From assembly GCA_963169195.1 (NCBI GenBank), contig CAUJDN010000109.1, positions 69,695 through 133,694 of the forward strand: DNA of 64,000 nt. The letters are read 5' to 3'. A model generated the notes under the pieces. It saw nothing but the letters and a program-made list of their open reading frames with translations. It had not been told where the DNA came from and searched no databases. The stretch comes from Acidobacteriota bacterium (GTDB taxonomy: Bacteria; Acidobacteriota; Vicinamibacteria; Vicinamibacterales; UBA2999). The position numbers were made by a program, and so were the translations under genes. Shown piece after piece: positions 29,936-48,109 of this stretch (the first letter of the stretch is position 1; every line of letters starts with the position of its first letter).

Positions 29936-30772
29936 TCAGTGGGTCATCGCATAGACAGCCACGTTCATCCCGAGGGCGTAGCCGTTGGGCGAGAACGCGT
30001 AGAAGTACTCGGGCTCCTCGCCCTCGCGCTCCCACGAATCCGCGATGTCGGTGTTGTGCGTCATCAGCACCATGACGCGCCCATGCGGGTCGGTGATGGC
30101 CGCCATGTGCGCGCGGGCGGACAGGGGGCCCATTTCCGACGTGTCCCCACCGGTCTGGCTCCAATACTGCCACGCCGGAACCTGGGGGATCTCCTTCACC
30201 TCGAACAGTGCGCGGTAGATCGGGTGGTCCGGCAGGAGGTCTTTGATGGGGAACTGGCCGGGCGGCAGGACCTTGGCGATCTCGCGGGCGAAGTCCTCCC
30301 AGGCATAGGGCCCCCAGTAGTCGTCCACCCAGAGGAACCCGCCCTTCAGCAGGTAATTGCGCAGTGCCTGGGCGTCCTCGGGGGAGAAGCCCGCGCTCCC
30401 CGGGTCCGACGCCATGACGAAGGGACACATCGACAGCCACTCGTCCGTGGGCTTCACGACGATGTGGTTGGGGTTCTCGCCCGTCTTCGACACGACGGTC
30501 TTCGTCATCTCGGAGAGGCGGATCGAGAAGTTGATGTCGGCAAACGGGTAGTCGGTGCCCCACCCCATGCCGCGCTGCTGCGCGCGCACGGCGGTGTACA
30601 TCAGCCGGCAGAAGTGGAAGCCCCCGTCCTGATCGGCCTCGGTCGCGTAGCGCGGCGGCACGCCAGCCTCGCCTCCCCAACGCCCGAAACCGCGGCCCCA
30701 GCCACGCTGGGCCTCGGCCAGTGACGCCGCCAGCAGGACGGCCACGATCGTCGCGCCGGCGGCCTTCCTCAT
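29936..30772 (-). CDS. Exported DUF4159 protein (copy 2)
   Basis: 278 residues, signal peptide ending SLAEAQ. Same blocks as copy 3: CRLMYTAVR, GTDYPFADINFSIRLSEM, LRNYLLKGGFLWVDDYWG, MTHNTDIADSWEREGEEPEYFYAFSPNG, ending YAMTH as in the other copies. Its start overlaps the DUF4175 stop by four bases (ATGA), so translation is coupled. Function unknown. Confidence 0.88.
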   Translation of the reverse strand: MRKAAGATIVAVLLAASLAEAQRGWGRGFGRWGGEAGVPPRYATEADQDGGFHFCRLMYTAVRAQQRGMGWGTDYPFADINFSIRLSEMTKTVVSKTGENPNHIVVKPTDEWLSMCPFVMASDPGSAGFSPEDAQALRNYLLKGGFLWVDDYWGPYAWEDFAREIAKVLPPGQFPIKDLLPDHPIYRALFEVKEIPQVPAWQYWSQTGGDTSEMGPLSARAHMAAITDPHGRVMVLMTHNTDIADSWEREGEEPEYFYAFSPNGYALGMNVAVYAMTH

Positions 30773-33700
30773 CTCTGCGAGCGCCCCCTCGAGAGCGACC
30801 GGTAGTACTCCTCGACGAGCGCCTTGAACTCCGGCGGCACGTCCTCAGACCCCGCGACGATGGCGCGGTCGGCTTCCTCGCCGGCACGCCGTCTCAGGTT
30901 GTATTCGAAACGCTTCACGCCCTCCGACACGTAGGACTGCAGTCGTTCCAGCTCGTTCACGTCCTTGTACACGCGATCGGAGTCGAGCTCGCGCATGCGG
31001 CGCATGATCTCGTCCAGCTCGCGCGCGTCCACGCCCTGCTCTCGGAGCATGTTGCGCAGTTCCTGGGCCTCGCCCAGCCAGCGGCGGGCCTCGCCCCGGA
31101 ACTGGCGGATGTCGTCGGCGGTGTAGTAATCGCCCGGGCGGCGATCGCCCCAGGGCCCACCGCCCCAGGCGCCGCCGCGCGTGTCACCACCCCCCATCCG
31201 GCCGTCGGCCGTGCCCGGCTGCCCCGCCTGGCCTTGCTGCCCTTGTCCCGGCTGGCCCGCCTGGCCCTGTTGACCACCCTGACCTTGTTGACCGCCTTGG
31301 CCCGGCTGCCCCGATTGCCCCTGCTGACCGGCCTGTCCCTGCTGGCCCTGTTGTCCCTGCTGGCCGCGCTGGCCTTCCTGCCCGGGCTGCTGGCCAGCCT
31401 CGTCGCCTCGGCCCTGCTGACCATCCTGCGCCCGCTCGTCGCCGCGTCCCGCCTGGCCCTGGCGCGCGCGCTCTTCCATGCGCCGCCCGAGCGACTCCGC
31501 GCCACGCGCGAGGTTGCGCGCGCGCTCCAGGGCGTCGGCGCCGCGGGCCTGCCCCTGGCGGGAGGCCGCGTCCGCGGCCTGGCCGAGCGTTTCGCGCAGC
31601 TGATCGATGTTGACGCCAATCTGCGCCTCGAGATTCCGGGCGAACTCCTCCGGCGCCCCTCCCTGAGCGGCGCGCTTCGAGTACCGGATCTTCTCCTTCA
31701 GCTGGTTCTCACGGATGCCAGTGGCGGCCTCGGCCAGCTTGCGCGACGTGTCCTTCGCGTCCTTCGCGGTCTCGTTGGCCATCCGATCCAGCTGTCGCTC
31801 GAGGCTGGCGACCTTCTGCTCGAGCGCGTCCTTGCGCTGGCCGACCATCTGCGCGCGGCCCAGCCGGTCTGCACCCGCGTTCGGCAGGTCGTTCACATCG
31901 TCGGCGATGTCCTTCTGCTCCTGCGCGATCTCCTCGGCCTGACGCAGGGCGTCCTGCACGTCGCGCCGGGCGCGATCGCCCTGCGAGCGCTGCAGCTGGC
32001 GCTGGGCCTCGCGCAGGCGCTCGGCCGCGGCCGCGGCCTGCCCCTGGGCGCTGGCATCGCCGTTGGCGGCGGCCCGGCGCATGGCGTCGGCGGCGTCGCG
32101 CAGCTGGCGCGCCGTGCTGGCCAGGTCCTGCCGGTTCTGTTCGCGCGAGAGCCGCTCGAGCTGGCGGGCGGCCTCCTCGGCCTGCTCGGCCAGCGCCCGC
32201 TGCAGATCGCTGCTGTTGCCGCGCGGCGCCTGGCCCGCGGCCATGCGACGCTGCCGCTCGAGTTCCTGCTCCTGCCGGCGAGCCAGCTCCTTCAGCTTCT
32301 CGGCGAGCTCGTCGATCCGCTGGTCGCCGGCCTGCTGGTCGGCGCGCTGGCTCGTCTCGTACTGGTTCGCCATGCGATCCAGCTCCATCTTGAAGAGATC
32401 GGCCAGATCTTCCGCGATGGAGCCGGCGCCACCGCCTCCACCACCGCCACCGTTCTGCTGCGTCTGCACCTGCAGCTCGAATTCCTCCTCGGCCTGCTGC
32501 AGGAACTGCAGCGCCTGCTGCTCGGGCGGGAGCGCGCCGTCCGGGCTCTGGCCCTGGAGCTTGCCCTCGGCGGTCTTCATCGACTCGGCAGCCTTCGGCA
32601 GCAGCTCCGCGATCGTCTGGAAGGCGGGATCCGGCGTCACCAGGCGGCTGTTCATCCGCTCCACGAGGCCTTCCACCTGCTCCCGCAGGCGGCTCTGCGA
32701 CAAGGTGAGGACGGTCATGCCCTCGCGGAACCTGTCGCCGGCCATCTGCCGGCGGTCGCGCTGCATGTTGAACGTGCCCGCGATGATCTGGCGCTGCTGC
32801 TGCGAGAGCGCGCCGACCTGGTCCATCCCCCCTCCGCCGCCACCTCCACCACCGCCCATCGACGTGGCCGGCTTGAAGTCCTTGTTGAACGGACGGATGC
32901 GCAGGAAGAACATGTCGCTCGTCGCGCGCTGGGGCCCGCCGACGGCGTTGTTGTCGGTGGCGCGCGCGTAGTACGACACGGCGTCGCCCGGCTTCACGCC
33001 CAGCTCCTCGAGGTAGAGCGTGTGGCCCGCCGTGACCTCCTGCAGCGGCTGGCGGCCCTCGAACAGGCGCACCGTCTTCTCGGGCCCGCCGTTCACCGAA
33101 TAGACGAGCTCGAGATTCTTCACCGCGTAGTCATCGTCGGCGCGCGCCTCGATGGCGAACTCCTGGACGGGCGTGGCGTCGGTGTCGCGCCCAGGCTTGG
33201 ACAGCGTCACGGTGGGTGTCTGGTCGCTGAGGATGTCGATGGTGTACTGCGGCGAGGCCGTGACGAGGGCGCCATCCGGGCCCTCGAGCTCGATTCGGTA
33301 GAACCCGTCCTTGGTCGCCGTGAAGCTCGTGGCGAGCGTGCCATCGGGCGCGACCGTGAGCGCCACGCTCGCATCCTCGCCGATGACGAGGCGCCCTCCC
33401 TTCGTCGGCATCGTCGGCGTGATGGTGAAGCCGACACTGGTGCCGGTCAGCACCGCGATGTCGCCGCCGTCCTCCACCTTGCGTGGCTCCAGGCCCGTGT
33501 AGGCCGGGAACCGGTAGTCCAGGTCCAGCTTCTTCACGTACGGCAGCTCGACGACCTTCAGGGTGAAGACGGGCGACCGCACGCCGGCGGCCTCCACGAA
33601 ATACTCGATGTCGTCGCCGAGGTCGAACAGCAGCCCTTCGTACGTGCCGTCCTCGCCCCTCAGCATCGCGACGCGCTCGTAGGCGGCCTCGCCGCCCTTC

Positions 33701-34380
33701 CGGAGGACGACCGCCGCCTCGGCCGCGTCGAAGCCGGCCAGCGTGGCCGCTATCGTCTGGTCCGCGCCTTTCGGCACCGTCGCGTCCCCGGGCGTCACCT
33801 CGACGCGGTACGGAGCCGCCGCCTCGACGCTGCGGGACAGCACGAACAGGGCCGTGAGCGTCTGCCGCAGGACGGCCGGACCGATGGTGAAGATGGCCAG
33901 CGCCACGGCCGAGACGACGGCGACCGCCATGCTGAGCCGGCGCAGCGGCTCCCTCTCGATGCGCGCGCCGTCCTCCACTGCGTGCAGTCGCTCGACAGCC
34001 GTCTCGATCATGCGCTGCACGAGCACGGGCGACGCCGCCGTGTCGCCCGGTTCCGCCATCGCCGTGACAATGGCGAACTCCAGCGACGGCTCGTGCTCCT
34101 CGAGATAGAGCGCCACCTGCTCGTCGGTCACCTTCCGCAGCAGCGGCCGCGCGAAGAACCACGCTGCGGCGCCGGCCAGCACGAGGCCGGCCACGATGCG
34201 AAACCAGAAGATGGAGGCGGGGGAGAAGCGGAAGAAGTCCAGGGCCGCGGCGATCGCGAACATGGCCAGCACGCCCGCCACCAGGAAGCCCACGGCCCCC
34301 CGAACGGCCAGCTTGGTCCGCCACCGCTTGCGCACCTGTCGAATGGCTTCGACGAGCTCGGCACGCGCGTGGTCGTTCAT
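30769..34380 (-). CDS. Large DUF4175-type membrane protein with Gly-Gln-X tract
   Basis: 1203 residues. Three hydrophobic helices are in the first ~175 residues (GAVGFLVAGVLAMFAIAAAL, IVAGLVLAGAAAWFF, LSMAVAVVSAVALAIFTIG). Then beta-rich Ig-like segments to about 500, two poly-Gly stretches, and a very long Gln/Arg/Ala-rich coiled-coil region (about 545-960). A collagen-like Gly-Gln-X tract (about 995-1057, encoded at about 31210-31395) leads to a helical C-terminus. No cysteine-rich or catalytic motif seen. Sits between BatA/VWA and DUF4159 genes. Probably a periplasm-spanning structural or scaffold protein (inference). Confidence 0.85.
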   Translation of the reverse strand: MNDHARAELVEAIRQVRKRWRTKLAVRGAVGFLVAGVLAMFAIAAALDFFRFSPASIFWFRIVAGLVLAGAAAWFFARPLLRKVTDEQVALYLEEHEPSLEFAIVTAMAEPGDTAASPVLVQRMIETAVERLHAVEDGARIEREPLRRLSMAVAVVSAVALAIFTIGPAVLRQTLTALFVLSRSVEAAAPYRVEVTPGDATVPKGADQTIAATLAGFDAAEAAVVLRKGGEAAYERVAMLRGEDGTYEGLLFDLGDDIEYFVEAAGVRSPVFTLKVVELPYVKKLDLDYRFPAYTGLEPRKVEDGGDIAVLTGTSVGFTITPTMPTKGGRLVIGEDASVALTVAPDGTLATSFTATKDGFYRIELEGPDGALVTASPQYTIDILSDQTPTVTLSKPGRDTDATPVQEFAIEARADDDYAVKNLELVYSVNGGPEKTVRLFEGRQPLQEVTAGHTLYLEELGVKPGDAVSYYARATDNNAVGGPQRATSDMFFLRIRPFNKDFKPATSMGGGGGGGGGGMDQVGALSQQQRQIIAGTFNMQRDRRQMAGDRFREGMTVLTLSQSRLREQVEGLVERMNSRLVTPDPAFQTIAELLPKAAESMKTAEGKLQGQSPDGALPPEQQALQFLQQAEEEFELQVQTQQNGGGGGGGGAGSIAEDLADLFKMELDRMANQYETSQRADQQAGDQRIDELAEKLKELARRQEQELERQRRMAAGQAPRGNSSDLQRALAEQAEEAARQLERLSREQNRQDLASTARQLRDAADAMRRAAANGDASAQGQAAAAAERLREAQRQLQRSQGDRARRDVQDALRQAEEIAQEQKDIADDVNDLPNAGADRLGRAQMVGQRKDALEQKVASLERQLDRMANETAKDAKDTSRKLAEAATGIRENQLKEKIRYSKRAAQGGAPEEFARNLEAQIGVNIDQLRETLGQAADAASRQGQARGADALERARNLARGAESLGRRMEERARQGQAGRGDERAQDGQQGRGDEAGQQPGQEGQRGQQGQQGQQGQAGQQGQSGQPGQGGQQGQGGQQGQAGQPGQGQQGQAGQPGTADGRMGGGDTRGGAWGGGPWGDRRPGDYYTADDIRQFRGEARRWLGEAQELRNMLREQGVDARELDEIMRRMRELDSDRVYKDVNELERLQSYVSEGVKRFEYNLRRRAGEEADRAIVAGSEDVPPEFKALVEEYYRSLSRGRSQR

Positions 34381-34392
34381 GACGGGCCCTCC

Positions 34393-36411
34393 CTAGTGCC
34401 TGACGGGCGCCAGCCGCCTCGCCAGCCACGATTCGGCAGTCAGAAGCAGGATACCCGCGAACAGCAGGTACCACCAGATGCGTTGTGCCTGCTCCTGCAC
34501 CTCGTCCGGGACGACCGCGGCCGCCATCCCCGGATCGCTCCCACCGCCGGGCTGGCCGGTCACGGCAACGGTGACTTCGGCCGGTTCCACGCGGGCGGGG
34601 TCCGACTCGGCCAGATCCACGTTGCTGGCCACGACCTGCAGCGCCTGTCCTTCGCGCGCGTCGCGCACCTCGTAGAACCCGGGCTCGGCCAGCTCGATGG
34701 CGGAGGATCCGTCGGCCGGGGCGCGCCGCTGCCCCGACGGCGTGAGGACGACGGCGCTGCTCCCGCCCGCGCTGACATCCACGGCCTGTCCCACCGTCAG
34801 CCAGCCCGGCTGCTCCCGATAGCCCGAAGCCTGGCGCACCAGCTGGTGCACGAACGGCAGGTACACCGGCTTCAAGGCCATGTCGTTCCACGACAGGTCG
34901 AGCGAGGTGGCCCAGGCGAGCACCCGCCCCCGCCCGACGACGGCCTCGACGAGCGCCGGCGTCCCGCCGTCGAAGCGCGCGAGGGTCACGCTGCCGGGTG
35001 CGGCGGTGAGCACGCGGTAGCCATACACCCGCGTGGACGAGAAGTCGCCGCTGCGCGGGGCGCGGAACGGCTCGAAGACCGCGTGGCCATAGTCGAATCC
35101 GCTCAGCTTGGCCGTCGCGCCGCGGGTCCGGTCCTCGGTCCCGGCCAGCGTGACGGGCATCCACGAGGCCTCGGCAGGCCACGAGGCACGCGGGCCGAGG
35201 GCCATCACGATCCCGCCGCCGCCCTCGACGAACGCCTTCAGCCGGGCCGCCACGGCATCGCCGATCGGGAGGTCCTGCACCACCACGACGCGCGAGCGGG
35301 CCAGAGCTTCTGGCGTGAGCGCGTCCACCTGGTGCGTCGTGGCCTGGAAGCGCGGGCGATCGCCAATCGCCAGCGCGCGCAGCAGGTAGAGGTCGCTTTC
35401 GCCCCGGCCACCCGCACCGACGATCATGACCGGCAAGACCTCGGGTGGGCGCACGAGAGCGTGGAACGCGTTGTCGACGGTCAGGGCATCGTCACCGAGT
35501 CGGGTGACGACGCGCAGCGCCGCCGCGGTGACGGCGACGGGGGCAAACGTGGTGGACGCGGAGCTCTGCGCGGCCACGTCCACGGTGGCCGACTGCACGA
35601 CCCTCCCGTCCACTTCGAGGGCCAGTGAGACCCCGCTGGCCGGCTGGGTCCCGCGATTCACGACACCGGCCGTCACGGTCACGCGTTCCGGCCCGTCGCC
35701 GCTCGCGCGCTGCAGCGATACCGGGGTGACCGAGAGGTTGGGGCCGGACGGCGGTTCCACCGCGACGGGCGTGAAGACGCTGCCCGAGGGGAGCCGGAAT
35801 GCCTCATCCGGCTGCCAGCCGGCCCGCTGAAAGTCCGAGATGAGGATGGCTTCCTTGCGCGGCAGCTGCGACTCCGCGAGCAGGCTCGAGGCCAGCTTCA
35901 GTGCGGGGGCGTAGCGCGTGGCGCCCGCGGACGGGCGGGCCGCCTCCACTTCGGCCAGCACACGCGACGCGTCCGCGCTCGAGCGCAGCACGAGCTCCGC
36001 CGTCGAGGAGAACAGGACGAGCGACACGCGGTCCAGCGGGCTCGCGCCCTGCAGGGCCTGGCGCGCCGCCTGCTGCGCGCGTGCCCAGGTGTCGCCGGCG
36101 CCCATGCTGTAGGACCGGTCCAGCAGCAGCACGACCTCGCGGGCGCCGCCGGCCGCGGCCGAGAGTTGCGAGCCGCGCACGAACGGACGGGCAAACGCCG
36201 CGACGATGAGCGCCAGCGCCGCGGCCCGGAGCGCCAGCAGGAGCCAGTCGCGGATGCGCCGCCGTCTGACGGACTCGTACGGAATCTTCCGCAGGAACAT
36301 CAGCGACGGGAACGCGACGACGGTCCGGCGCTCGCGCTGCGTCAGGTGAATCAGCACCGGCACCGCGATGGCGGCCAGTCCGAGCAGGAAGAGCGGAGCC
36401 AGGAAGGTCAT
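34393..36411 (-). CDS. BatA-type membrane VWA protein
   Basis: 672 residues. N-terminal BatA domain (FLAPLFLLGLAAIAVPVLIHL; two helices before residue 80) followed by a VWA domain with MIDAS DRSYSM near 100 and SDF later. A CARDB-like beta domain (about 235-310) precedes a Rossmann/GATase-like segment (RVVVVQDLPIGDAV, FVEGGGGIVMALG). A C-terminal helix WWYLLFAGILLLTAESWL completes it. Overlaps the DUF58 stop by four bases. Part of the MoxR-DUF58-BatA core. Confidence 0.88.
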   Translation of the reverse strand: MTFLAPLFLLGLAAIAVPVLIHLTQRERRTVVAFPSLMFLRKIPYESVRRRRIRDWLLLALRAAALALIVAAFARPFVRGSQLSAAAGGAREVVLLLDRSYSMGAGDTWARAQQAARQALQGASPLDRVSLVLFSSTAELVLRSSADASRVLAEVEAARPSAGATRYAPALKLASSLLAESQLPRKEAILISDFQRAGWQPDEAFRLPSGSVFTPVAVEPPSGPNLSVTPVSLQRASGDGPERVTVTAGVVNRGTQPASGVSLALEVDGRVVQSATVDVAAQSSASTTFAPVAVTAAALRVVTRLGDDALTVDNAFHALVRPPEVLPVMIVGAGGRGESDLYLLRALAIGDRPRFQATTHQVDALTPEALARSRVVVVQDLPIGDAVAARLKAFVEGGGGIVMALGPRASWPAEASWMPVTLAGTEDRTRGATAKLSGFDYGHAVFEPFRAPRSGDFSSTRVYGYRVLTAAPGSVTLARFDGGTPALVEAVVGRGRVLAWATSLDLSWNDMALKPVYLPFVHQLVRQASGYREQPGWLTVGQAVDVSAGGSSAVVLTPSGQRRAPADGSSAIELAEPGFYEVRDAREGQALQVVASNVDLAESDPARVEPAEVTVAVTGQPGGGSDPGMAAAVVPDEVQEQAQRIWWYLLFAGILLLTAESWLARRLAPVRH

Positions 36412-37316
36412 CGCGTGCGTGTCAGCCGGTCACGAATCGACAGGTACTGGAACAGGGCGTGGTCCAGCGGCATGGAGGTGTTGAGCAGCATGTAATCCAC
36501 CCGCTGCGCCGTGGCGCGCGCGGAGAGCTCGGCGATGTGCGCCTTGACCAGCGCGCGGTACTGCTCCGCCAGCGCGTCGGGCACGATCGGGATCTGGTCG
36601 CCGCTCTCCAGGTCCTCGAAGCTCGCGGAATCCGGGAAGGAGAACTCGATCTCCATCGGGTCCAGCACGTGGAACAGGATCACGTCGTTGCCGCGGAAGC
36701 GGATGGGCCCGATGCCGTCGAAGACTTCGTCGGGCTCCGCGTAGAAATCGGAAATCACGACGACGATGCCGCGTCGCCCGAAGTGCTCGGCCAGTTTCCG
36801 GAGCGGCGGGCCGATCTGGCCGGGCCGATCGGCCTTCGCGCGGTCGATGGTGTGCAGCACGACGTCCAGATGCTTGGCGGAGGGCGGCACGAACTCCACG
36901 ACCTCGCTGTCGAAGGTGACCAGCCCCACGCGGTCCCGCTGCTGGTGCACGAGGTAGGTGAGGCACGCCGCCAGCGTCTTCGCGTAGTCGAGCTTGCTCA
37001 GCCGCGCGCCGAACGCCATCGACCGCGACACGTCGAGCAGCACCGAGAAGTTGGCGTTCGAGTCGGCCTCGAACTCCTTGAGGAAGTAGCGATCCGTGCG
37101 CGCGAAGACCTTCCAGTCGACGCGGCGGATGTCGTCGCCCGGCACGTAGCCGCGATGCTCGGCGAAGTCCACCGACGCGCCGAAGAACGGCGAACGGTGC
37201 AGGCCGTTGATCACGCCGTCCACCACCGTGCGCGCGACGAACTCGAGGTTCCCCACGCGCGCCAGGACCGCGGGATCCACGAACCGGGCGCCAGGCGTGA
37301 TCGCGTGCTCGCTCAT
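36408..37316 (-). CDS. DUF58 protein (VWA-like)
   Basis: 302 residues, cytoplasmic. DUF58 signature PGDDIRRVDWKVFARTDRYFLKEFEAD and a degenerate MIDAS LLDVSRSMAFG, then VVVISDFYAE. DUF58 proteins accompany MoxR ATPases in Bat-type and related clusters. Shares ATGA-type overlap with the following BatA gene; 57 nt after the MoxR gene, in a gap made of a 7-mer repeat. Confidence 0.93.
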   Translation of the reverse strand: MSEHAITPGARFVDPAVLARVGNLEFVARTVVDGVINGLHRSPFFGASVDFAEHRGYVPGDDIRRVDWKVFARTDRYFLKEFEADSNANFSVLLDVSRSMAFGARLSKLDYAKTLAACLTYLVHQQRDRVGLVTFDSEVVEFVPPSAKHLDVVLHTIDRAKADRPGQIGPPLRKLAEHFGRRGIVVVISDFYAEPDEVFDGIGPIRFRGNDVILFHVLDPMEIEFSFPDSASFEDLESGDQIPIVPDALAEQYRALVKAHIAELSARATAQRVDYMLLNTSMPLDHALFQYLSIRDRLTRTR

Positions 37317-37328
37317 CGTCTGTCCGTC

Positions 37329-37356
37329 GGAGCCGGGAGCCGGGAGCCGGGAGTCG
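37329..37356. repeat. 7-mer tandem repeat, 4 units (GGAGCCG)
   Basis: GGAGCCG x3 then GGAGTCG between the MoxR and DUF58 genes. Related to 15352-15378 read on the opposite strand. Confidence 0.75.
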
Positions 37357-37373
37357 GCATCGTCGCTCCCGGG

Positions 37374-38399
<1,026 letters not shown>

Positions 38400-38466
38400 G
38401 TGTCCCTCGTTTCTTCAGCGGTCAACCGCCACGCACTCGGCACCCGGCACCGGGCACCCCCGCACC

Positions 38467-39228
38467 CTAGTGCGTCATCGCATAGATCACGTAATTCACA
38501 CCGTACTTGTAGGCCTCGTTCGACAGGTCCACCGGCACCCAGCCCGTGTCCGAGAACTCCCACAGCTCGCCGAGGTCGTGGTTGTAATTGGCGACGGCCA
38601 GCAGCCGCTTCGTCGCGTCGTTGTCCTCGAAGATGCCGAGGAACTGGGCCTCCCCGTAATACCCTTCGGACACGAGCGTGTCGATGTCGAAGAACGAGTG
38701 GAACACGGGATGGCTCGCGTCGAGCGTCACCCAGCGCGCCTCCGGGAGCACGTCCGCCATGCGTCCCTGCAGGTTCGACCAGTCCCTCGTGCCGCGGAAG
38801 TCGTCGAAGATGATGAAGCCGCCCTTCTGCAGGTAGGCCCGCAGCCCTGCGGTCTCCGCCTCGGTCAGCGTCCAGAAGCCGGGCTCCGACATGTAGACCA
38901 CCGGGTGGAGCCCCAGGTCCGGATCGTCCAGCGTCAGGATGTTGCTCTCGTCGCGCAGCGTCCGGGTGAAGGTGATCTCTTCCAGGATCCGCTGGAAGTG
39001 CCAGTCCGCACGCGGGTAGTCGTGCGCCCAGCCCGGGTCGCGGCGAACGCCCCCCTGGTAGCGGAGCCGCACGAACGAGAAGCGCCCATCGTACTCCACG
39101 CGCGCCTCGGCCGGCACGGGGCTGAATCGCCCGCGCCCGCGGAAGAACCCGTCCTGCGCGAAGGCGATGCCGCCCGCGAGGCCGGCCAGCACCATCCCCG
39201 CGGCGATCCTACGGGAGGCCGACGACAC
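38467..39228 (-). CDS. Exported DUF4159 protein (copy 1)
   Basis: 253 residues from GTG 39228, which gives a full signal peptide (SRRIAAGMVLAGLAGGIAFA). DUF4159 blocks: FSFVRLRYQGG, GWAHDYPRADWHFQRILEE, LRAYLQKGGFIIFDDFRG and a terminal YAMTH shared with copies 2 and 3. It lacks the WEREGEEPE segment of the other two, so it is the more diverged copy. Its 5' end overlaps the preceding gene by 20 bp. Confidence 0.87.
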   Translation of the reverse strand: MSSASRRIAAGMVLAGLAGGIAFAQDGFFRGRGRFSPVPAEARVEYDGRFSFVRLRYQGGVRRDPGWAHDYPRADWHFQRILEEITFTRTLRDESNILTLDDPDLGLHPVVYMSEPGFWTLTEAETAGLRAYLQKGGFIIFDDFRGTRDWSNLQGRMADVLPEARWVTLDASHPVFHSFFDIDTLVSEGYYGEAQFLGIFEDNDATKRLLAVANYNHDLGELWEFSDTGWVPVDLSNEAYKYGVNYVIYAMTH

Positions 39229-41491
39229 GCCGGTACCCCCATTCCGCGCAGAGCAGACCCACGAGCAGCATCAGCACGATGGGCATGTTCCAGAGTTCGT
39301 GCTCTTCCACGGTGGTGACGCCACGGCCGGTGTAGCGGAGATCATCGGCCAGCGTCGCGGTATCGCCGGCGGCGTAGGAGCGGCCGCCCGTCTCCTCGGC
39401 CACGCGCCGGAGCGTGCCCGTCCGCCGCGTGGCGTCGAAGTACTCCTGCTCGCCCGGCGCGGCGCGGACGTGCGAAACCGCCGTGCCCACTTCCGTGCCG
39501 GCCCGCGTGGCCCGCACGCGCACCTCGTACCACCCGGGCGCCACGGTCGGGAAGCTGCCTTCGTACTCACCGGCCTCCTCTCCGCTCCAGGCCATCGGCA
39601 CGTCGGTCACCGCGCCGTCCGGCCCGGTGACGGCCGCCGTCACCGAGGCGTCGTTCAGCTCGACGAACGCCGCGTCGGCCACCGAGGACGTGAACGTCGC
39701 CGTCGAACCCGGCTCCACCCGATCCGAGGCCGTGCGAATCTCCACCTGATCGGGCACCTCGTCCACGACCCAGCGCAGCAGCTGCCGCCAGTAGTTCTCG
39801 TGCGTCAGGTCCTCGACCGGGATGGTGGCGTGCATCTGCCAGACCCACGAGTCCTGCGGCGTGAACGCGAAGGCCTTGCCGCGGCCGTAGCGCTGGAACA
39901 CCAGCACCGGGTAGTCGCGCCGCGACCCCTCCTGCGCCGACAGCAGCACCGTGGCGCCCGGCTTGACGCGATCCAGCTGGTTCACCGCCGTCACCAGCGG
40001 CAGCGTATTCCAGCGCTCGACCGACGCCGCTTCGGTGCCCGCCACCTGCGTCACGGCACTCGCCGCGCCCGCGCGAGTGGGACGCACCTGCAGGCGCATC
40101 ACCTCGCCCTCCTTCTGGCGGAGGCTCGCATCCAGCACGACCGGCAGGACGTCGGCCACGGCCGTGCCGGCGTAGCCGCCCTCGCTGAAGGCCCGTGGGC
40201 CGCCCAGCGCCAGCAGCCCGCCGCCCCGCCGGTCCACGAACTCGGCGATCATCCGAAGCTGGTCGCCCGTGAACGATCCCGCCTCGACGCTGCCGAGCAC
40301 GAGGCCGCGGTAGGCGAAGAGCTCCTCGCGCGTCTTCGGGAAGCCCGCCACGAGCTCGTCCGGCGTGTCCACGCCCAGGCGCAGGTACTTGTTGTCCGCC
40401 GTCCTCTGCAGGGCCACGACCTCGACGTTCTCGTCTTCGGTGACCGCGCGGCGGATGAACTTCAGCTCGAAGCGGGGCTCGCCTTCGAAATACAGGATTC
40501 GCTCGCGGCGATCCCGCACGTCGATGAGCGCTTCGCGGTGGTTGTTCTGCGTGACCAGCTCGCCCGGCATCGTCGGCACGCGGAACCGCAGGACGCGCGG
40601 ACCCTCGTCCGCCACCGTGATGCGCACCGGCACCGTGGCCGGCGCGCCCGCCGATGGCAGCGTCACCTGCTGGGTGCTGACGATGCGCCCTTCGTCTTCC
40701 ACGTCGAGGGTGACCGACTGGCCGTCGTAGCCCCTGTGGGCGATGACCACGTCCACGAGCAGCGTGGTGCCCTTGAGGGCCGTGCGGGGCGTGGACACGC
40801 GGCCGATCTGGATGTCACGGTCCAGCGTCTCACGTCCCACGCCGACCGTGAAGACGGGGATGGCCTCGGCCTTCAGCCCGAGCAGCGCCTCCCCGAGGGC
40901 GGTGTCGGCGGTGTCGGCACCGTCGCTGACCATCACCAGGCCCGCCAGCGGCAGCCCTGCCAGCTCCTGGCGTGCCGCCGACAGCGCGGCGCCCAGCCTG
41001 GTCTCGGTGCCGTCGAAGCCCAGGTCGCGGCCCTGGGCCGCGCGAGTGGCGGTGGACGAGAAGCGGAACACGCGCACGGTGAACCGGTCCGCGAGTGCCT
41101 TCAGCGCGCCACCGTCGAGCGCGCCGAAGTCCGACCGGACATAGGACGCCCGCGACTGGCCGTCCAGATCGGCAATCTGCATGGAGCGCGAGTCGTCCAG
41201 CAGCACACCAACCACGTTCTGCTGCGGGACGGCTGCGCGCACTACGAGCATGGGCCGGAACAGACAGGCAAGCACCAGCAGCAGCAGCGCCACGCGCACG
41301 GTGGTCAGGACCAGGCGGTCGCGCAGCGACAGCCGCGACGCGCCGCGGTAGCTGATCACCGCCGCGGCAATCGCCGCGCCCGTGACAGCCACGGCGACGA
41401 ACGAGCCGGTCCACGCCGCCCAGCGGATCTCCCCTTGTGCGAACATCGCCGGGGAGTGCTCGAAGAAGAAACGAAAGGGGGCCTCGAACAC
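39209..41491 (-). CDS. Membrane VWA protein with glutamine-amidotransferase-like domain
   Basis: 760 residues from GTG 41491, preceded by CGGAGA six bases upstream. Two N-terminal helices (about 25-50, 63-85), VWA MIDAS LLDDSRSMQI near 97, VMVSDGADTADTA, then Ig-like beta segments. A GATase1/ThuA-like region follows (YFEGEPRFELKFIRRAV, FVDRRGGGLLALGGPRAFSEGGYAGT), with a final helix MPIVLMLLVGLLCAEW. No catalytic Cys triad is evident. First gene of the operon; same architecture as large VWA proteins next to DUF4159 in Planctomycetes and Acidobacteria. Confidence 0.85.
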   Translation of the reverse strand: MFEAPFRFFFEHSPAMFAQGEIRWAAWTGSFVAVAVTGAAIAAAVISYRGASRLSLRDRLVLTTVRVALLLLVLACLFRPMLVVRAAVPQQNVVGVLLDDSRSMQIADLDGQSRASYVRSDFGALDGGALKALADRFTVRVFRFSSTATRAAQGRDLGFDGTETRLGAALSAARQELAGLPLAGLVMVSDGADTADTALGEALLGLKAEAIPVFTVGVGRETLDRDIQIGRVSTPRTALKGTTLLVDVVIAHRGYDGQSVTLDVEDEGRIVSTQQVTLPSAGAPATVPVRITVADEGPRVLRFRVPTMPGELVTQNNHREALIDVRDRRERILYFEGEPRFELKFIRRAVTEDENVEVVALQRTADNKYLRLGVDTPDELVAGFPKTREELFAYRGLVLGSVEAGSFTGDQLRMIAEFVDRRGGGLLALGGPRAFSEGGYAGTAVADVLPVVLDASLRQKEGEVMRLQVRPTRAGAASAVTQVAGTEAASVERWNTLPLVTAVNQLDRVKPGATVLLSAQEGSRRDYPVLVFQRYGRGKAFAFTPQDSWVWQMHATIPVEDLTHENYWRQLLRWVVDEVPDQVEIRTASDRVEPGSTATFTSSVADAAFVELNDASVTAAVTGPDGAVTDVPMAWSGEEAGEYEGSFPTVAPGWYEVRVRATRAGTEVGTAVSHVRAAPGEQEYFDATRRTGTLRRVAEETGGRSYAAGDTATLADDLRYTGRGVTTVEEHELWNMPIVLMLLVGLLCAEWGYRRVVGLP

Positions 41492-41602
41492 GGCAATCTC
41501 CGGCGATTCTACATGTGTCCGCGCGCCGGGACGTCACGCTCCCGGTGGCGCCAGCACGGCCTTTGGCTGCCGCCGCCGGGATTCCACGGTAGGCTATCCG
41601 CC

Positions 41603-42619
41603 ATGCCCGTGCCTTCGCTGTCTCGTCGCGATCTGTTCGGACTGGCCGGCGCGCTGCTCGCGCCGCGCCTGGCCGCCGTCGTCAGGGCTCAGTCTGTCAG
41701 ACGTGCCGTGGTCGCCAACGGTCGCCGCTTCCTGCAATACGACGTCTTCACCGATCGGCCCCTCACGGGTAACCAGCTGGCGGTCTTCTTCGACACCGAC
41801 GGGCTCACGACGGAGCAGATGGCCGCCATGACGCGGGAAACGAACTTCTCGGAGGCGACCTTCGTGTTCCCGGCCGGGCGGCCGGGCACCGACATCCGGC
41901 TCCGCATCTTCGGCCGGGGCGGAGAGATGCCCTTTGCCGGTCATCCTGTGATCGGATCCACGTTCGCCCTGGCCGACGACGGCGTCATTCCGCCCGGGCG
42001 GCAGGAATTCACCTTCGGGCTGAACCTCGGCCCGACGCTGGTCGAGCTGGAATGGCTGGGTGACCGGCTGGCCTTCGCCTGGATGAGCCAGCGGCGCCCG
42101 GCCTTCGGCCCGGCGATGCCGCACGCCGAAGCGGTCGCGGCGGCACTCGGCGTTCCACCGGCCGCGATCATGCAGGACCTGCCGATCCAGGAAGTCGACT
42201 GCGGGTCGGCGTTCTACTTCGTCCCGCTGGCTACGCGGGTAGCCGTCGACCAGGCGGTGCTGGACCCGCGCGCGATGGCTGCGGTGTTCGAACAGGCCGG
42301 CCTGCCGAGGCGCGGGGTGTTCATCTTCTCGCCTGAAGCAGCCGGCGACGGCGCAACGGTCTACAGCCGCATGCTCGGCGCGACGGCCGAGGATCCGGCC
42401 ACGGGCTCGGCCAGCGGGCCGCTGGGCTGCTACCTCGTGCGCCACGGCCTCGTCCCCGTCGCACGTGCCGGCGCCATCGTCAGCGCCCAGGGCGTGAAGA
42501 TGAACCGCCCGAGCCGCGTGCACGTCCGCATCGACGCCGCCGCGCCCGATGCGATCACGCGCGTACGCGTCGGCGGCGCGAGTGTGCTGGTGGGCGAGGG
42601 CAGGTTGCGGCCCACGTAG
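41603..42619 (+). CDS. PhzF-family isomerase/epimerase with Tat signal peptide
   Basis: 338 residues. PhzF/diaminopimelate-epimerase-like fold; family signatures FTDRPLTGNQLAVF, NFSEATFVF (catalytic Glu), GRGGEMPFAGHP and AEDPATGSASGPLG. Unusually, the first 30 residues form a twin-arginine signal (SRRDLFGLAGALLAPRLAAVV...RA), predicting export of a folded protein. Known PhzF enzymes are cytoplasmic. Substrate unknown. Alone on the plus strand, divergent from the VWA operon. Confidence 0.85.
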   Translation: MPVPSLSRRDLFGLAGALLAPRLAAVVRAQSVRRAVVANGRRFLQYDVFTDRPLTGNQLAVFFDTDGLTTEQMAAMTRETNFSEATFVFPAGRPGTDIRLRIFGRGGEMPFAGHPVIGSTFALADDGVIPPGRQEFTFGLNLGPTLVELEWLGDRLAFAWMSQRRPAFGPAMPHAEAVAAALGVPPAAIMQDLPIQEVDCGSAFYFVPLATRVAVDQAVLDPRAMAAVFEQAGLPRRGVFIFSPEAAGDGATVYSRMLGATAEDPATGSASGPLGCYLVRHGLVPVARAGAIVSAQGVKMNRPSRVHVRIDAAAPDAITRVRVGGASVLVGEGRLRPT

Positions 42620-42797: not shown

Positions 42798-43874
42798 GTG
42801 TCCGCCACAGCCGCGTCCGTTCCCGTCACCCGCACGACGACCCCGCGTTTCTCGGAGGCCCTCCGCGACTCGGCCGCCTTCGGGGCCGTGTTCAGCGACC
42901 ACGTGCTCGTCGCGGAGTACAAGGACGGGACGTGGGGCGAGCCGTCCATCGTGCCCTACGGGGCGATGCCCCTGCCGCCGGCCCCGATCGTGGCGCATTA
43001 CGGCCAGGGGATCTTCGAGGGCTTCAAGGCGTTTCCCCGCCCCGACGGCGGCGCGGTGCTCTTCCGCCCGGACGCCAACCACGCGCGCATGAACCGCTCG
43101 TGCCAGCGGATGGCGATGCCCGAGATCCCGGCCTCCATCTTCATCGACGGCACGGCGGCGCTGGTTCGGGTCGACCGGCAGTGGATCCCGTCCGGGCCCG
43201 GGAGCGCACTCTATGTCCGCCCGGTGCTGTTCGCCACGGGCGAGCCGCTCAGCGTGCGGCCCTCGGAGACCTACCGTTTCGTCATCGAGACCTGCCCGAG
43301 CGGACCATACTTCTCGGGCGCCGTGGACCTGATCGCCGAGGATACCTACGTGCGGGCCTTCCCGGGCGGCACGGGCGCGGCGAAGTGCGGTGGCAACTAC
43401 GCCGGCAGCATGCTGGCCGCGCTGGAGGCCCAGAAGAAGGGCTTCCACACCGTGCTCTGGCTGGACGGCATCGAGCGCCGCTGGGTCGAGGAAGCGGGCC
43501 TGATGAACGTGGTGTTCGTGATCGACGGCACCGTGGTCACGCCCCCACTCGGGGGCACCATCCTGCCGGGCATCACCCGCGATTCCGTGCTGACGCTGCT
43601 GCGCGAGATGGGCATCCCGGTCGCCGAGCGCCGCATCGCCATCGACGAGGTGTTCGAGGCGCACGCAGCCGGCCGCCTGCAGGGCGCCGCGGGCGTGGGT
43701 ACGGCCGCCACCATCGCCCCGCTCGGCCGCCTCCGCCACAAGGACCGCGAGATCGTGGTGCCGGCCGTGACGCCGGAATCGCCGCTCGCCCGCGTCGGCG
43801 CCGAGCTCGACGCCATTCGCACCGGCGCGATCGCCGACCGACACGGCTGGCTGCTCGCCGTCCAGGAGCGGTGA
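42798..43874 (+). CDS. ilvE: Branched-chain amino acid aminotransferase
   Basis: 358 residues from GTG 42798, with GGAGG five bases upstream. Class IV PLP aminotransferase transferring amino groups between glutamate and Leu/Ile/Val. Block GQGIFEGFKAFPRPDGGAVLFRP, the PLP lysine in GTGAAKCGGNYAGS, LWLDGIERRWVEEAGLMNVVFV and GRLQGAAGVGTAATIAPL all match BCAT type II. TATACT at about 42751 may be its promoter. Confidence 0.94.
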   Translation: MSATAASVPVTRTTTPRFSEALRDSAAFGAVFSDHVLVAEYKDGTWGEPSIVPYGAMPLPPAPIVAHYGQGIFEGFKAFPRPDGGAVLFRPDANHARMNRSCQRMAMPEIPASIFIDGTAALVRVDRQWIPSGPGSALYVRPVLFATGEPLSVRPSETYRFVIETCPSGPYFSGAVDLIAEDTYVRAFPGGTGAAKCGGNYAGSMLAALEAQKKGFHTVLWLDGIERRWVEEAGLMNVVFVIDGTVVTPPLGGTILPGITRDSVLTLLREMGIPVAERRIAIDEVFEAHAAGRLQGAAGVGTAATIAPLGRLRHKDREIVVPAVTPESPLARVGAELDAIRTGAIADRHGWLLAVQER

Positions 43875-46290: not shown

Positions 46291-47529
46291 TCACTTGCCG
46301 AAATTCAACCTGTCCAGCGCCACCCGGCCGTTGCTGATCACCACCAGCGGGTCGAGCAGCGCACGGATATTCTGCAACGGGTTCTCGGCCACGACCAGCA
46401 CGTCGGCCTCGAACCCCGGCGCGAGCCGGCCCACCTGCTTCTCGCGCTGCAGCAGCTGGGCGTTGCGCACCGTCGCGGACTGCAGCGCCTCGAGCGGCGC
46501 CAGGCCCGCCTCCGACAACGCGACCACTTCGCGCGCGAGCGTGGAGACGCTGCGCGGGCCGTAGCCGCTGTCCGAGCCCGCCGCAATCGTCACGCCGAAG
46601 GCCCGCGCGCGGCCGATGGCCGCCTTCAGGATGGGCCGCATCATCTGCCCCCGCCGCTGCAGCGCGGCATCGTCGTAGTCGCCGCCCGGCTCGGCCAGGT
46701 CGGTCACGATGTCCACCGTCGGCACGAAGAACGTGCCCTGGGCCGCCATCAGCTTCAGCGTCGCATCGGCCAGATAGGTGCCGTGCTCGATGCTCCGGAC
46801 ACCGGCCTTCACCGCCGCGTCGGCGCCCTCCGCACCATGCGCGTGCGCCTGGACCGGGATGCTCCTGAGGGCGGCCTCGCCGACGATGACCTCGAGCTCG
46901 GCGGCGCTGAACATCTGCCTGCGCGGATCCGTGTCGGGCGTGCCCGCCCGCTCCGTCGCGTTCACCTTGATCCAGTCCACGCCGTGCGCGAGGTTCGCGC
47001 GGACCACCCGGCGCAGCCCCTCGACGGACGTGATCCCGCCCATCAGGTCACCCAGATCGGGATCGGAGAGGAACAGCTCGGGCGCGGGCGTCGTGCGCAC
47101 GTGATAGCCCGCCGCCAGCAGATCGGGACCCGGCAGGTGCCCGTGCTTCACCAGTTCCCGCAGGCCCACATCCACATAGTTGGAGACGCCGGCGCTCCGC
47201 GCCGTCGTGACGCCCGACTGCAGCGCCGCACGCATCTGCGGGACGCTGGCAATGTGCACGTGCGCATCGATCAGGCCGGGGACCACCCACCGGTGCCGGA
47301 TGTCGACGGTCCGCACGCCGGCCGGCGCCGCTCCGGGGCCCATCGATTCGATCCGCCCGCCGCCGAGGACGAGGGTCTGCCCCTCCTGCAGCGTGCCGGT
47401 GGCGACGTCGACGACCGTGGCGTTCACGAGGGCCAGCCGCTCGGCCGGTCCGCCCCCCTGCGCGACGAGATGACCCGAAACCGCGAAGATCGCCGCGAGC
47501 CCCGCGGCGCATGCCCCCATCGCCTTCAT
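46291..47529 (-). CDS. Exported metal-dependent amidohydrolase
   Basis: 412 residues with signal peptide (ACAAGLAAIFAVSGHLVAQ). Shine-Dalgarno GGAGG is five bases before ATG 47529. TIM-barrel amidohydrolase: VPGLIDAHVHI, bridging lysine in GVDWIKVNA, PVQAHAHG, SIEHGTYL and the catalytic Asp in AAGSDSGYG. Resembles imidazolonepropionase-like/Xaa-Pro dipeptidase-type periplasmic hydrolases. Likely hydrolyses small amides or dipeptides. First gene of a three-gene operon. Confidence 0.9.
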   Translation of the reverse strand: MKAMGACAAGLAAIFAVSGHLVAQGGGPAERLALVNATVVDVATGTLQEGQTLVLGGGRIESMGPGAAPAGVRTVDIRHRWVVPGLIDAHVHIASVPQMRAALQSGVTTARSAGVSNYVDVGLRELVKHGHLPGPDLLAAGYHVRTTPAPELFLSDPDLGDLMGGITSVEGLRRVVRANLAHGVDWIKVNATERAGTPDTDPRRQMFSAAELEVIVGEAALRSIPVQAHAHGAEGADAAVKAGVRSIEHGTYLADATLKLMAAQGTFFVPTVDIVTDLAEPGGDYDDAALQRRGQMMRPILKAAIGRARAFGVTIAAGSDSGYGPRSVSTLAREVVALSEAGLAPLEALQSATVRNAQLLQREKQVGRLAPGFEADVLVVAENPLQNIRALLDPLVVISNGRVALDRLNFGK

Positions 47530-47602
47530 GTGCCCTCCGTTGCCCATCATAGTGCGGGACATCCCGTCCCCGGACGCCGCTGGTGTGATAAGTGTGGACG
47601 CG

Positions 47603-48109
47603 ATGCGGGCCCGGTTGCTCACGCTCGTCCTCGTGCACCTGATCGTGTCGGCCTGTGGCACCGGGGTGTTCGTCCACACCCTCGAGATTGCGGTGTCGGA
47701 TCCCACCGGTCGCCTCGGGCCGCCCCCGGTCGAGATCGGGATCTTCGATCACACGATGGGCCGGTCGGAGGAATGGGCCCGCAGGACGGCGGGAACGGCC
47801 GCGCCAGGGGCGCCCTACCGAGGCGAGCACCGCGCGGTGGAGACGAAGACGGTCCTCGACTCGAGCCCCTCGCGTCGCGTGGCGGTCGGGGTGTGGCTGC
47901 CGGCGTACCACAGCGCCGGGTTCTTTCAACTCGTCATCGAGCCGGGCACCAACGCCGTTCAACGCGTGACCCTGCCGTTTGTCCCCTGGGCCGATTCCTA
48001 CCCCGAGGGCCGCACCGTGATCCCGCTGGCCGCCACCGTGCGCAGCGAGGCCGTCGACGGCGCCTGGGCCCTTCGCATGACGATCGAGGTGCCGCCGAAG
48101 CCGGACTGA
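47603..48109 (+). CDS. Putative lipoprotein of unknown function
   Basis: 168 residues. N-terminal hydrophobic segment with a lipobox LIVSAC near residue 18, then a transthyretin-like beta-rich domain (FVHTLEIAVSDPTGRLGPPPVEIGIFDH). I recognise no family. In-frame GTG 47594 is an alternative start. Divergent from the amidohydrolase, 63 nt upstream of the transporter pair. Probably a periplasmic surface or accessory protein. Confidence 0.65.
   Translation: MRARLLTLVLVHLIVSACGTGVFVHTLEIAVSDPTGRLGPPPVEIGIFDHTMGRSEEWARRTAGTAAPGAPYRGEHRAVETKTVLDSSPSRRVAVGVWLPAYHSAGFFQLVIEPGTNAVQRVTLPFVPWADSYPEGRTVIPLAATVRSEAVDGAWALRMTIEVPPKPD

Follow-up and report, generated by a model that had tools for sequence, protein, structure and literature searches.

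A PhzF-family protein with a predicted twin-arginine signal and a shortened gate loop, from a probably exported branch represented in Acidobacteriota

The window, a 64,000-nucleotide stretch of DNA from an Acidobacteriota bacterium, contains a gene for a PhzF-family enzyme which, with a probability of about 0.8, is exported folded by the twin-arginine translocation (Tat) route to the periplasm and belongs to a distinct, mostly exported branch of the family, split from cytosolic copies in the same genomes and distinguished by a short gate loop and an RRG motif. Members of the PhzF family normally work inside the cell and, to our knowledge, PhzF relatives are widespread and mostly lack a known substrate. 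The gene is a variant of the known PhzF family, not a new kind of system. Its preliminary description as a PhzF gene with a Tat signal was supported by the present analysis and appears largely right. The positions of the relevant features are shown in Table 1.

Table 1 Features of the PhzF-family gene and its surroundings in the window
Feature	Position	Strand	Basis
Divergent neighbour, 760 aa glutamine-amidotransferase-like protein at the end of a MoxR/DUF58/BatA/DUF4159 row	39209..41491	-	Conserved beside the gene in g1, g2
TAGGCT, -10-like TANNNT box, 7 nt upstream of the ATG	41590..41595	+	Comparison across clade genes
PhzF-family protein of 338 aa, predicted to carry a Tat signal	41603..42619	+	Open reading frame, profile matches, predicted structure
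Predicted twin-arginine signal peptide, residues 1-29	41603..41689	+	Sequence, ortholog comparison, uniform rule
Arg8-Arg9 of the signal	41624..41629	+
Glu84, aligned with the catalytic glutamate Glu45 in P. fluorescens PhzF	41852..41854	+	Sequence alignment
Arg236-Arg237, clade mark (RRG)	42308..42313	+	RRG in 23/23 short-loop members, 1/67 others
MLGATA (residues 257-262), the short gate loop preceding E263-D264	42371..42388	+	Alignment
Class IV aminotransferase, downstream	42798..43874	+	Conserved beside the gene in genera g1, g2; start by inspection

Gene, start codon and signal peptide

The reading frame is uninterrupted from the ATG at 41603 to the end of the stop codon at 42619. Its product matched PF02567 (PhzC-PhzF) at 161.3 bits, compared with a curated cut-off of 27, over the whole profile (profile positions 1-281), and TIGR00654 at 175.6 bits (curated cut-off 76.2), with the family domain starting at about residue 42. 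With both profiles above cut-off and Glu84 aligned to Glu45 of PhzF, the earlier statement that the catalytic glutamate and the family motifs are intact was confirmed. The AlphaFold2 model had a mean pLDDT of 92.8, low in the first 30 residues, and comparison with solved structures using Foldseek and VIA-align assigned it to the PhzF fold, as the top ten chains (Z 34-36) were all of the PhzF family and were followed by hydroxyproline epimerases, proline racemase and DapF.

The N-terminus, MPVPSLSRRDLFGLAGALLAPRLAAVVRAQS, reads as a credible twin-arginine signal, and residues 1-29 (MPVPSLSRRDLFGLAGALLAPRLAAVVRA) lie ahead of the family domain. The features of a Tat substrate, namely an x-RR-x-phi-phi motif (SRRDLF), a hydrophobic core and a c-region of small residues, are present, in agreement with the SRR, hydrophobic stretch and likely cleavage site reported previously; cleavage is predicted after Ala29, between VRA and QS, a site placed by inspection. 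A uniform rule, consisting of x-RR near the start and an adjacent hydrophobic window, was passed by 19 of 20 homologs labelled as exported and by none of 65 others, a result which is a check and not a blind test because the labels had first been assigned by eye. The sole miss was L004, the signal of which is Sec-like, and the chance level, taken from the ATG-begun open frames of the window, was 15 of 897. The signal changes fast, 13 of 41 N-terminal residues differing from an ortholog of 85 % identity, so that constraint is visible in the arginine pair and the hydrophobicity, not in individual residues. Two TatC genes were detected in the source genome by profile search (215 and 213.9 bits). 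Judged from sequence, the signal peptide is no chance extension.

The start at 41603 is supported by a TANNNT box found 6-10 nt before the proposed ATG in 15 of the 18 exported-clade genes examined, against a background of 12 in 1482 window ATGs (0.8 %) with such a box at 3-10 nt; the distance of 10 applies only to L014, where the start was taken one codon late, and the others lie at 6-7 nt. The position of the box suggests a transcript that is leaderless or nearly so, with the hexamer as its -10 element. As a separate observation, leaderless transcripts may be common in this Acidobacteriota order, given the box in 15 of 18 genes.

A branch with a short gate loop and its distribution

A maximum-likelihood tree was constructed from the cores of 85 proteins without the N-terminal extension, after duplicates were merged and sequences that were too short (L050, L052, L093) or lacked the anchor motif (L001, L040, L119, L121) had been excluded. 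The 20 labelled copies formed one clade (support 99/89), in which three families of the order are represented together with L004, which comes from an Alphaproteobacterial metagenome-assembled genome. A profile of the exported clade, run over 193 genomes of the class, recovered L153 and L154 from outside the order, both with seven-residue loops. With these two and the Sphingomonas morindae plasmid protein described below, the clade has 23 members, mostly from metagenome-assembled genomes, and it held at 81/97 (bootstrap 81 only) in a tree of 51 chosen rows of 90, from which the gate-loop residues were cut out and to which L001 was added back. Its signals are Tat-like in 20 members, Sec-like in L004 and lipoprotein-like in L154 (MTLTRSRFWLALLVLVGGCTG); in L153 the residues after a TTG are weakly hydrophobic, if at all, and this member was counted as having no clear signal, so that not every protein of the clade would be exported. 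The variety of signals found in a single branch suggests that the route of export matters less than the location.

The gate loop has 5-7 residues in all 23 members and 9 or 11 in the 63 readable sequences of 67 others. In the first set, it was 5, 6 or 7 residues in all 20 exported copies, and 9 (60 sequences) or 11 (one) in the 61 of 65 others readable by pattern; Arg236-Arg237 was fixed in 20 of 20 exported copies. The loop of P. aeruginosa PA4716 also reads as somewhat shorter in the alignment, and loop shortening alone is therefore not unique to the clade. On present sequences, the short loop together with the RRG distinguishes the branch, and both nearly always go with export, by one route or another.

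The catalytic set is identical between the exported and signal-less groups, in a residue comparison from which seven rows, divergent or on long branches, had been excluded (L051, L060, L120, L007, L008, L117 and L006). By sequence alignment, as opposed to superposed coordinates, N57, S83, E84, G113, H114, D264, G268 and Ser269 of the window protein correspond to Asn18, Ser44, Glu45, Gly73, His74, Asp208, Gly212 and Ser213 of P. fluorescens PhzF. The first seven are invariant in 19 aligned members and Ser269 is nearly so, while E84, H114 and D264 are present in every one of 49 aligned rows. The stretch that separates the conserved Ser-Arg from the Glu-Asp of the catalytic site is nine residues long in P. 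fluorescens PhzF (MFSPAYGVV) and six in the window protein, which thus lacks the full Tyr203-Val206 gate loop of the dihydro-3-hydroxyanthranilate (DHHA) isomerase. According to published work, the PhzF segment from Tyr203 to Asp208 forms one side of an active-site door, with Ser44 and Asp208 as key residues (PMC4586147), the Tyr203 carbonyl binds a water that takes part in tautomerisation (PMC5524880), and Glu45 has a catalytic role (PMC5524880, PMC4586147). With the catalytic-set positions invariant and the loop short, the proton-shuttle and carboxylate-binding parts have been kept and the lid rebuilt, a combination which may reflect a changed substrate.

The survey of Tat-PhzF proteins in Acidobacteriota proposed in the preliminary description found an intact exported-type copy in 19 of the 162 genomes of the order, and all 19 orthologs retain an arginine-pair signal (SRR, TRR or NRR with a hydrophobic stretch behind it). 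Homologs lacking the extension, raised there as a possible objection, do exist, yet they fall outside the clade, and their gate loop is of the longer type. A signal-less paralog of this kind accompanies the intact exported copy in 16 of the 19 genomes, the source genome among them. It was not found at the threshold used in G333, G031 and G366. The second PhzF gene of the source genome (C91:15666-16610) starts three residues before YLHYDVFT, without the extension. Two further genomes, G369 and G032, carry exported-type copies with a broken reading frame (L093:4304-5271 and L050:8568-9140).

Beyond the order, the results on spread hold for the depth searched. At a threshold of E 1e-75, 12 of 297 genomes of the phylum contained a match, irrespective of signal status, and all 12 belong to the same order; among 385 Alphaproteobacteria only the starting genome, that of L004, matched, and a search of 99 relatives of that genome found nothing beyond it. 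Thirty-five plasmid records matched and nine were read, the loop being unreadable by pattern in three of the nine and short only in a PhzF of a Sphingomonas morindae plasmid (WP_252168982.1; L124:5908-6897), which was the nearest plasmid match and pairs with L004 in the tree at 100/99. Read from the annotated start, this protein has no signal, and read from an ATG that lies 15 codons further upstream, behind a GAGGTGA, it begins with the Tat-like MEVQRRTVLTGASTAMAVMAGGGTADA; from the sequence, the annotated start appears to be 15 codons too short and to conceal the signal. The Sphingomonas case illustrates how a short annotated start can hide export.

Gene neighbourhood, proposed activity and alternatives

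The neighbourhood was considered as a clue to substrate or pathway and rejected, since no neighbour gene common to the whole clade was found at the loci of g1, g2, g21, f5, f12, f89 and the Alphaproteobacterium, leaving no pointer to the substrate. The gene lies between a LON-substrate-binding-domain gene and a DUF3891 gene in g21; in f5 it is near a gene family common to five loci and, at some loci, near a metallo-beta-lactamase-fold protein with an apparent signal. The f12 neighbours are an amidohydrolase, a DinB-family gene and an acetamidase/formamidase, and those in f89 include GGDEF-TPR, MFS and S46 peptidase genes. In the Alphaproteobacterial genome (L004:3118-5948), a gamma-glutamyltranspeptidase gene directly precedes the Sec-type PhzF gene. 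No phenazine genes were present among ten scanned neighbours of the window gene (the MoxR/BatA row, aminotransferases, an oxidoreductase and an amidohydrolase), and PHZA_PHZB had no match in the source genome, the control genomes being equally silent.

Two other observations were made in the window. The region 30769-41491 contains a row of DUF4175, BatA/VWA, DUF58, MoxR, DUF4159 and glutamine-amidotransferase-like genes, which occurs in the same order in seven loci. An amidohydrolase with an apparent export signal is encoded at 46291-47706; in G004 and in G046, the exported PhzF has a homolog of it nearby.

From the signal sequence and start, the clade, the conservation of loop and residues and the predicted fold, we infer that in the cell the protein would be exported folded via Tat to the periplasm. 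By analogy with PhzF, Glu84 would there shuttle a proton on a small substrate bearing a carboxylate and an amine, the carboxylate being held by Gly113, His114, Gly268 and Ser269 and the amine by Asp264. The shorter gate, which is without most of the Tyr203-Val206 equivalent, may admit a different substrate or, alternatively, the proton shift may proceed without the water-assisted tautomerisation of PhzF. The protein would accordingly be described as a putative envelope-located Glu-shuttle isomerase with a changed substrate, probably acting on a small molecule outside the inner membrane.

Three other explanations were weighed. In the first, translation would begin at a GTG at codon 36 and yield a cytosolic protein without a signal, the upstream codons being untranslated and signal-like by chance; a GTG near this position also occurs in the close orthologs L003 and L009. 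Such a start is highly improbable, as the codon-36 GTG is absent from orthologs L014, L017-L019, L066 and L067, most genes have the -10-like box 6-7 nt ahead of the upstream ATG, every one of the order's intact copies has the arginine-pair signal, and relatives carry signals of other types. Export of an enzyme with the same activity as the cytosolic paralog, differing only in location, would be in keeping with the shared catalytic residues and the standard fold. It is an unlikely account, though one that deserves some weight, with the shorter loop and fixed RRG throughout the 23 members and the retention of both copies in most of the genomes arguing against it. The invariant or nearly invariant catalytic positions in the 19 aligned members make it very unlikely that the exported protein is catalytically idle and keeps the PhzF fold for envelope binding or a structural role, a reading with which the lack of a substrate or pathway neighbour at the loci examined would agree.

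The preferred reading, an exported enzyme of a separate branch, can be extended to a broader proposal, to which we give even odds: that an undescribed, mostly exported branch of PhzF-like isomerases with a cut-down gate and RRG acts in the periplasm or on the surface of the cell, shifting a proton of an amino-acid-like compound, occurs also in Alphaproteobacteria and once on a Sphingomonas plasmid, and has some members hidden by annotated starts. The literature searched by title and the beginning of the abstract, a scope outside which most subscription journals fall, held no description of an exported PhzF, and in the papers examined more closely in which PhzF and export terms occurred together, the two were unrelated. 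With a predicted location and a gate that both differ, and with a cytosolic paralog as an inner control within one genome, the branch would narrow the search for its substrate to molecules outside the cytoplasm, and the two copies form a ready protein pair for comparison.

Comparison with known systems

Among known systems, the closest include the DHHA isomerase PhzF of P. fluorescens (PDB 1t6k, 1xub, 1u1w, 5iwe and 9f96), which has the same fold (Z about 36) at 31-34 % identity, and whose Glu45, His74, Asp208, Asn18, Ser44, Gly73, Gly212 and Ser213 all have counterparts in the window protein. As aligned, it has no Tat signal and a nine-residue loop including Tyr203, whereas the window protein has a predicted Tat signal, a six-residue loop and RRG. 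E. coli YddE, P. aeruginosa PA4716 and a B. anthracis PhzF-family protein (PDB 1qy9, 1u0k and 3edn) share the fold and family motifs at 25-32 % identity, their solved chains as aligned being without an export extension. The cytosolic PhzF paralogs of the order (e.g. G000:C91:15666-16610) are about 55 % identical to the window protein over residues 42-335, but start a few residues before YLHYDVFT and have a nine-residue loop and no RRG. Proline racemase, hydroxyproline epimerase and DapF belong to the wider fold superfamily (Z 22-26, 9-17 % identity) and use a Cys-pair mechanism, in contrast to the Glu of the window protein.
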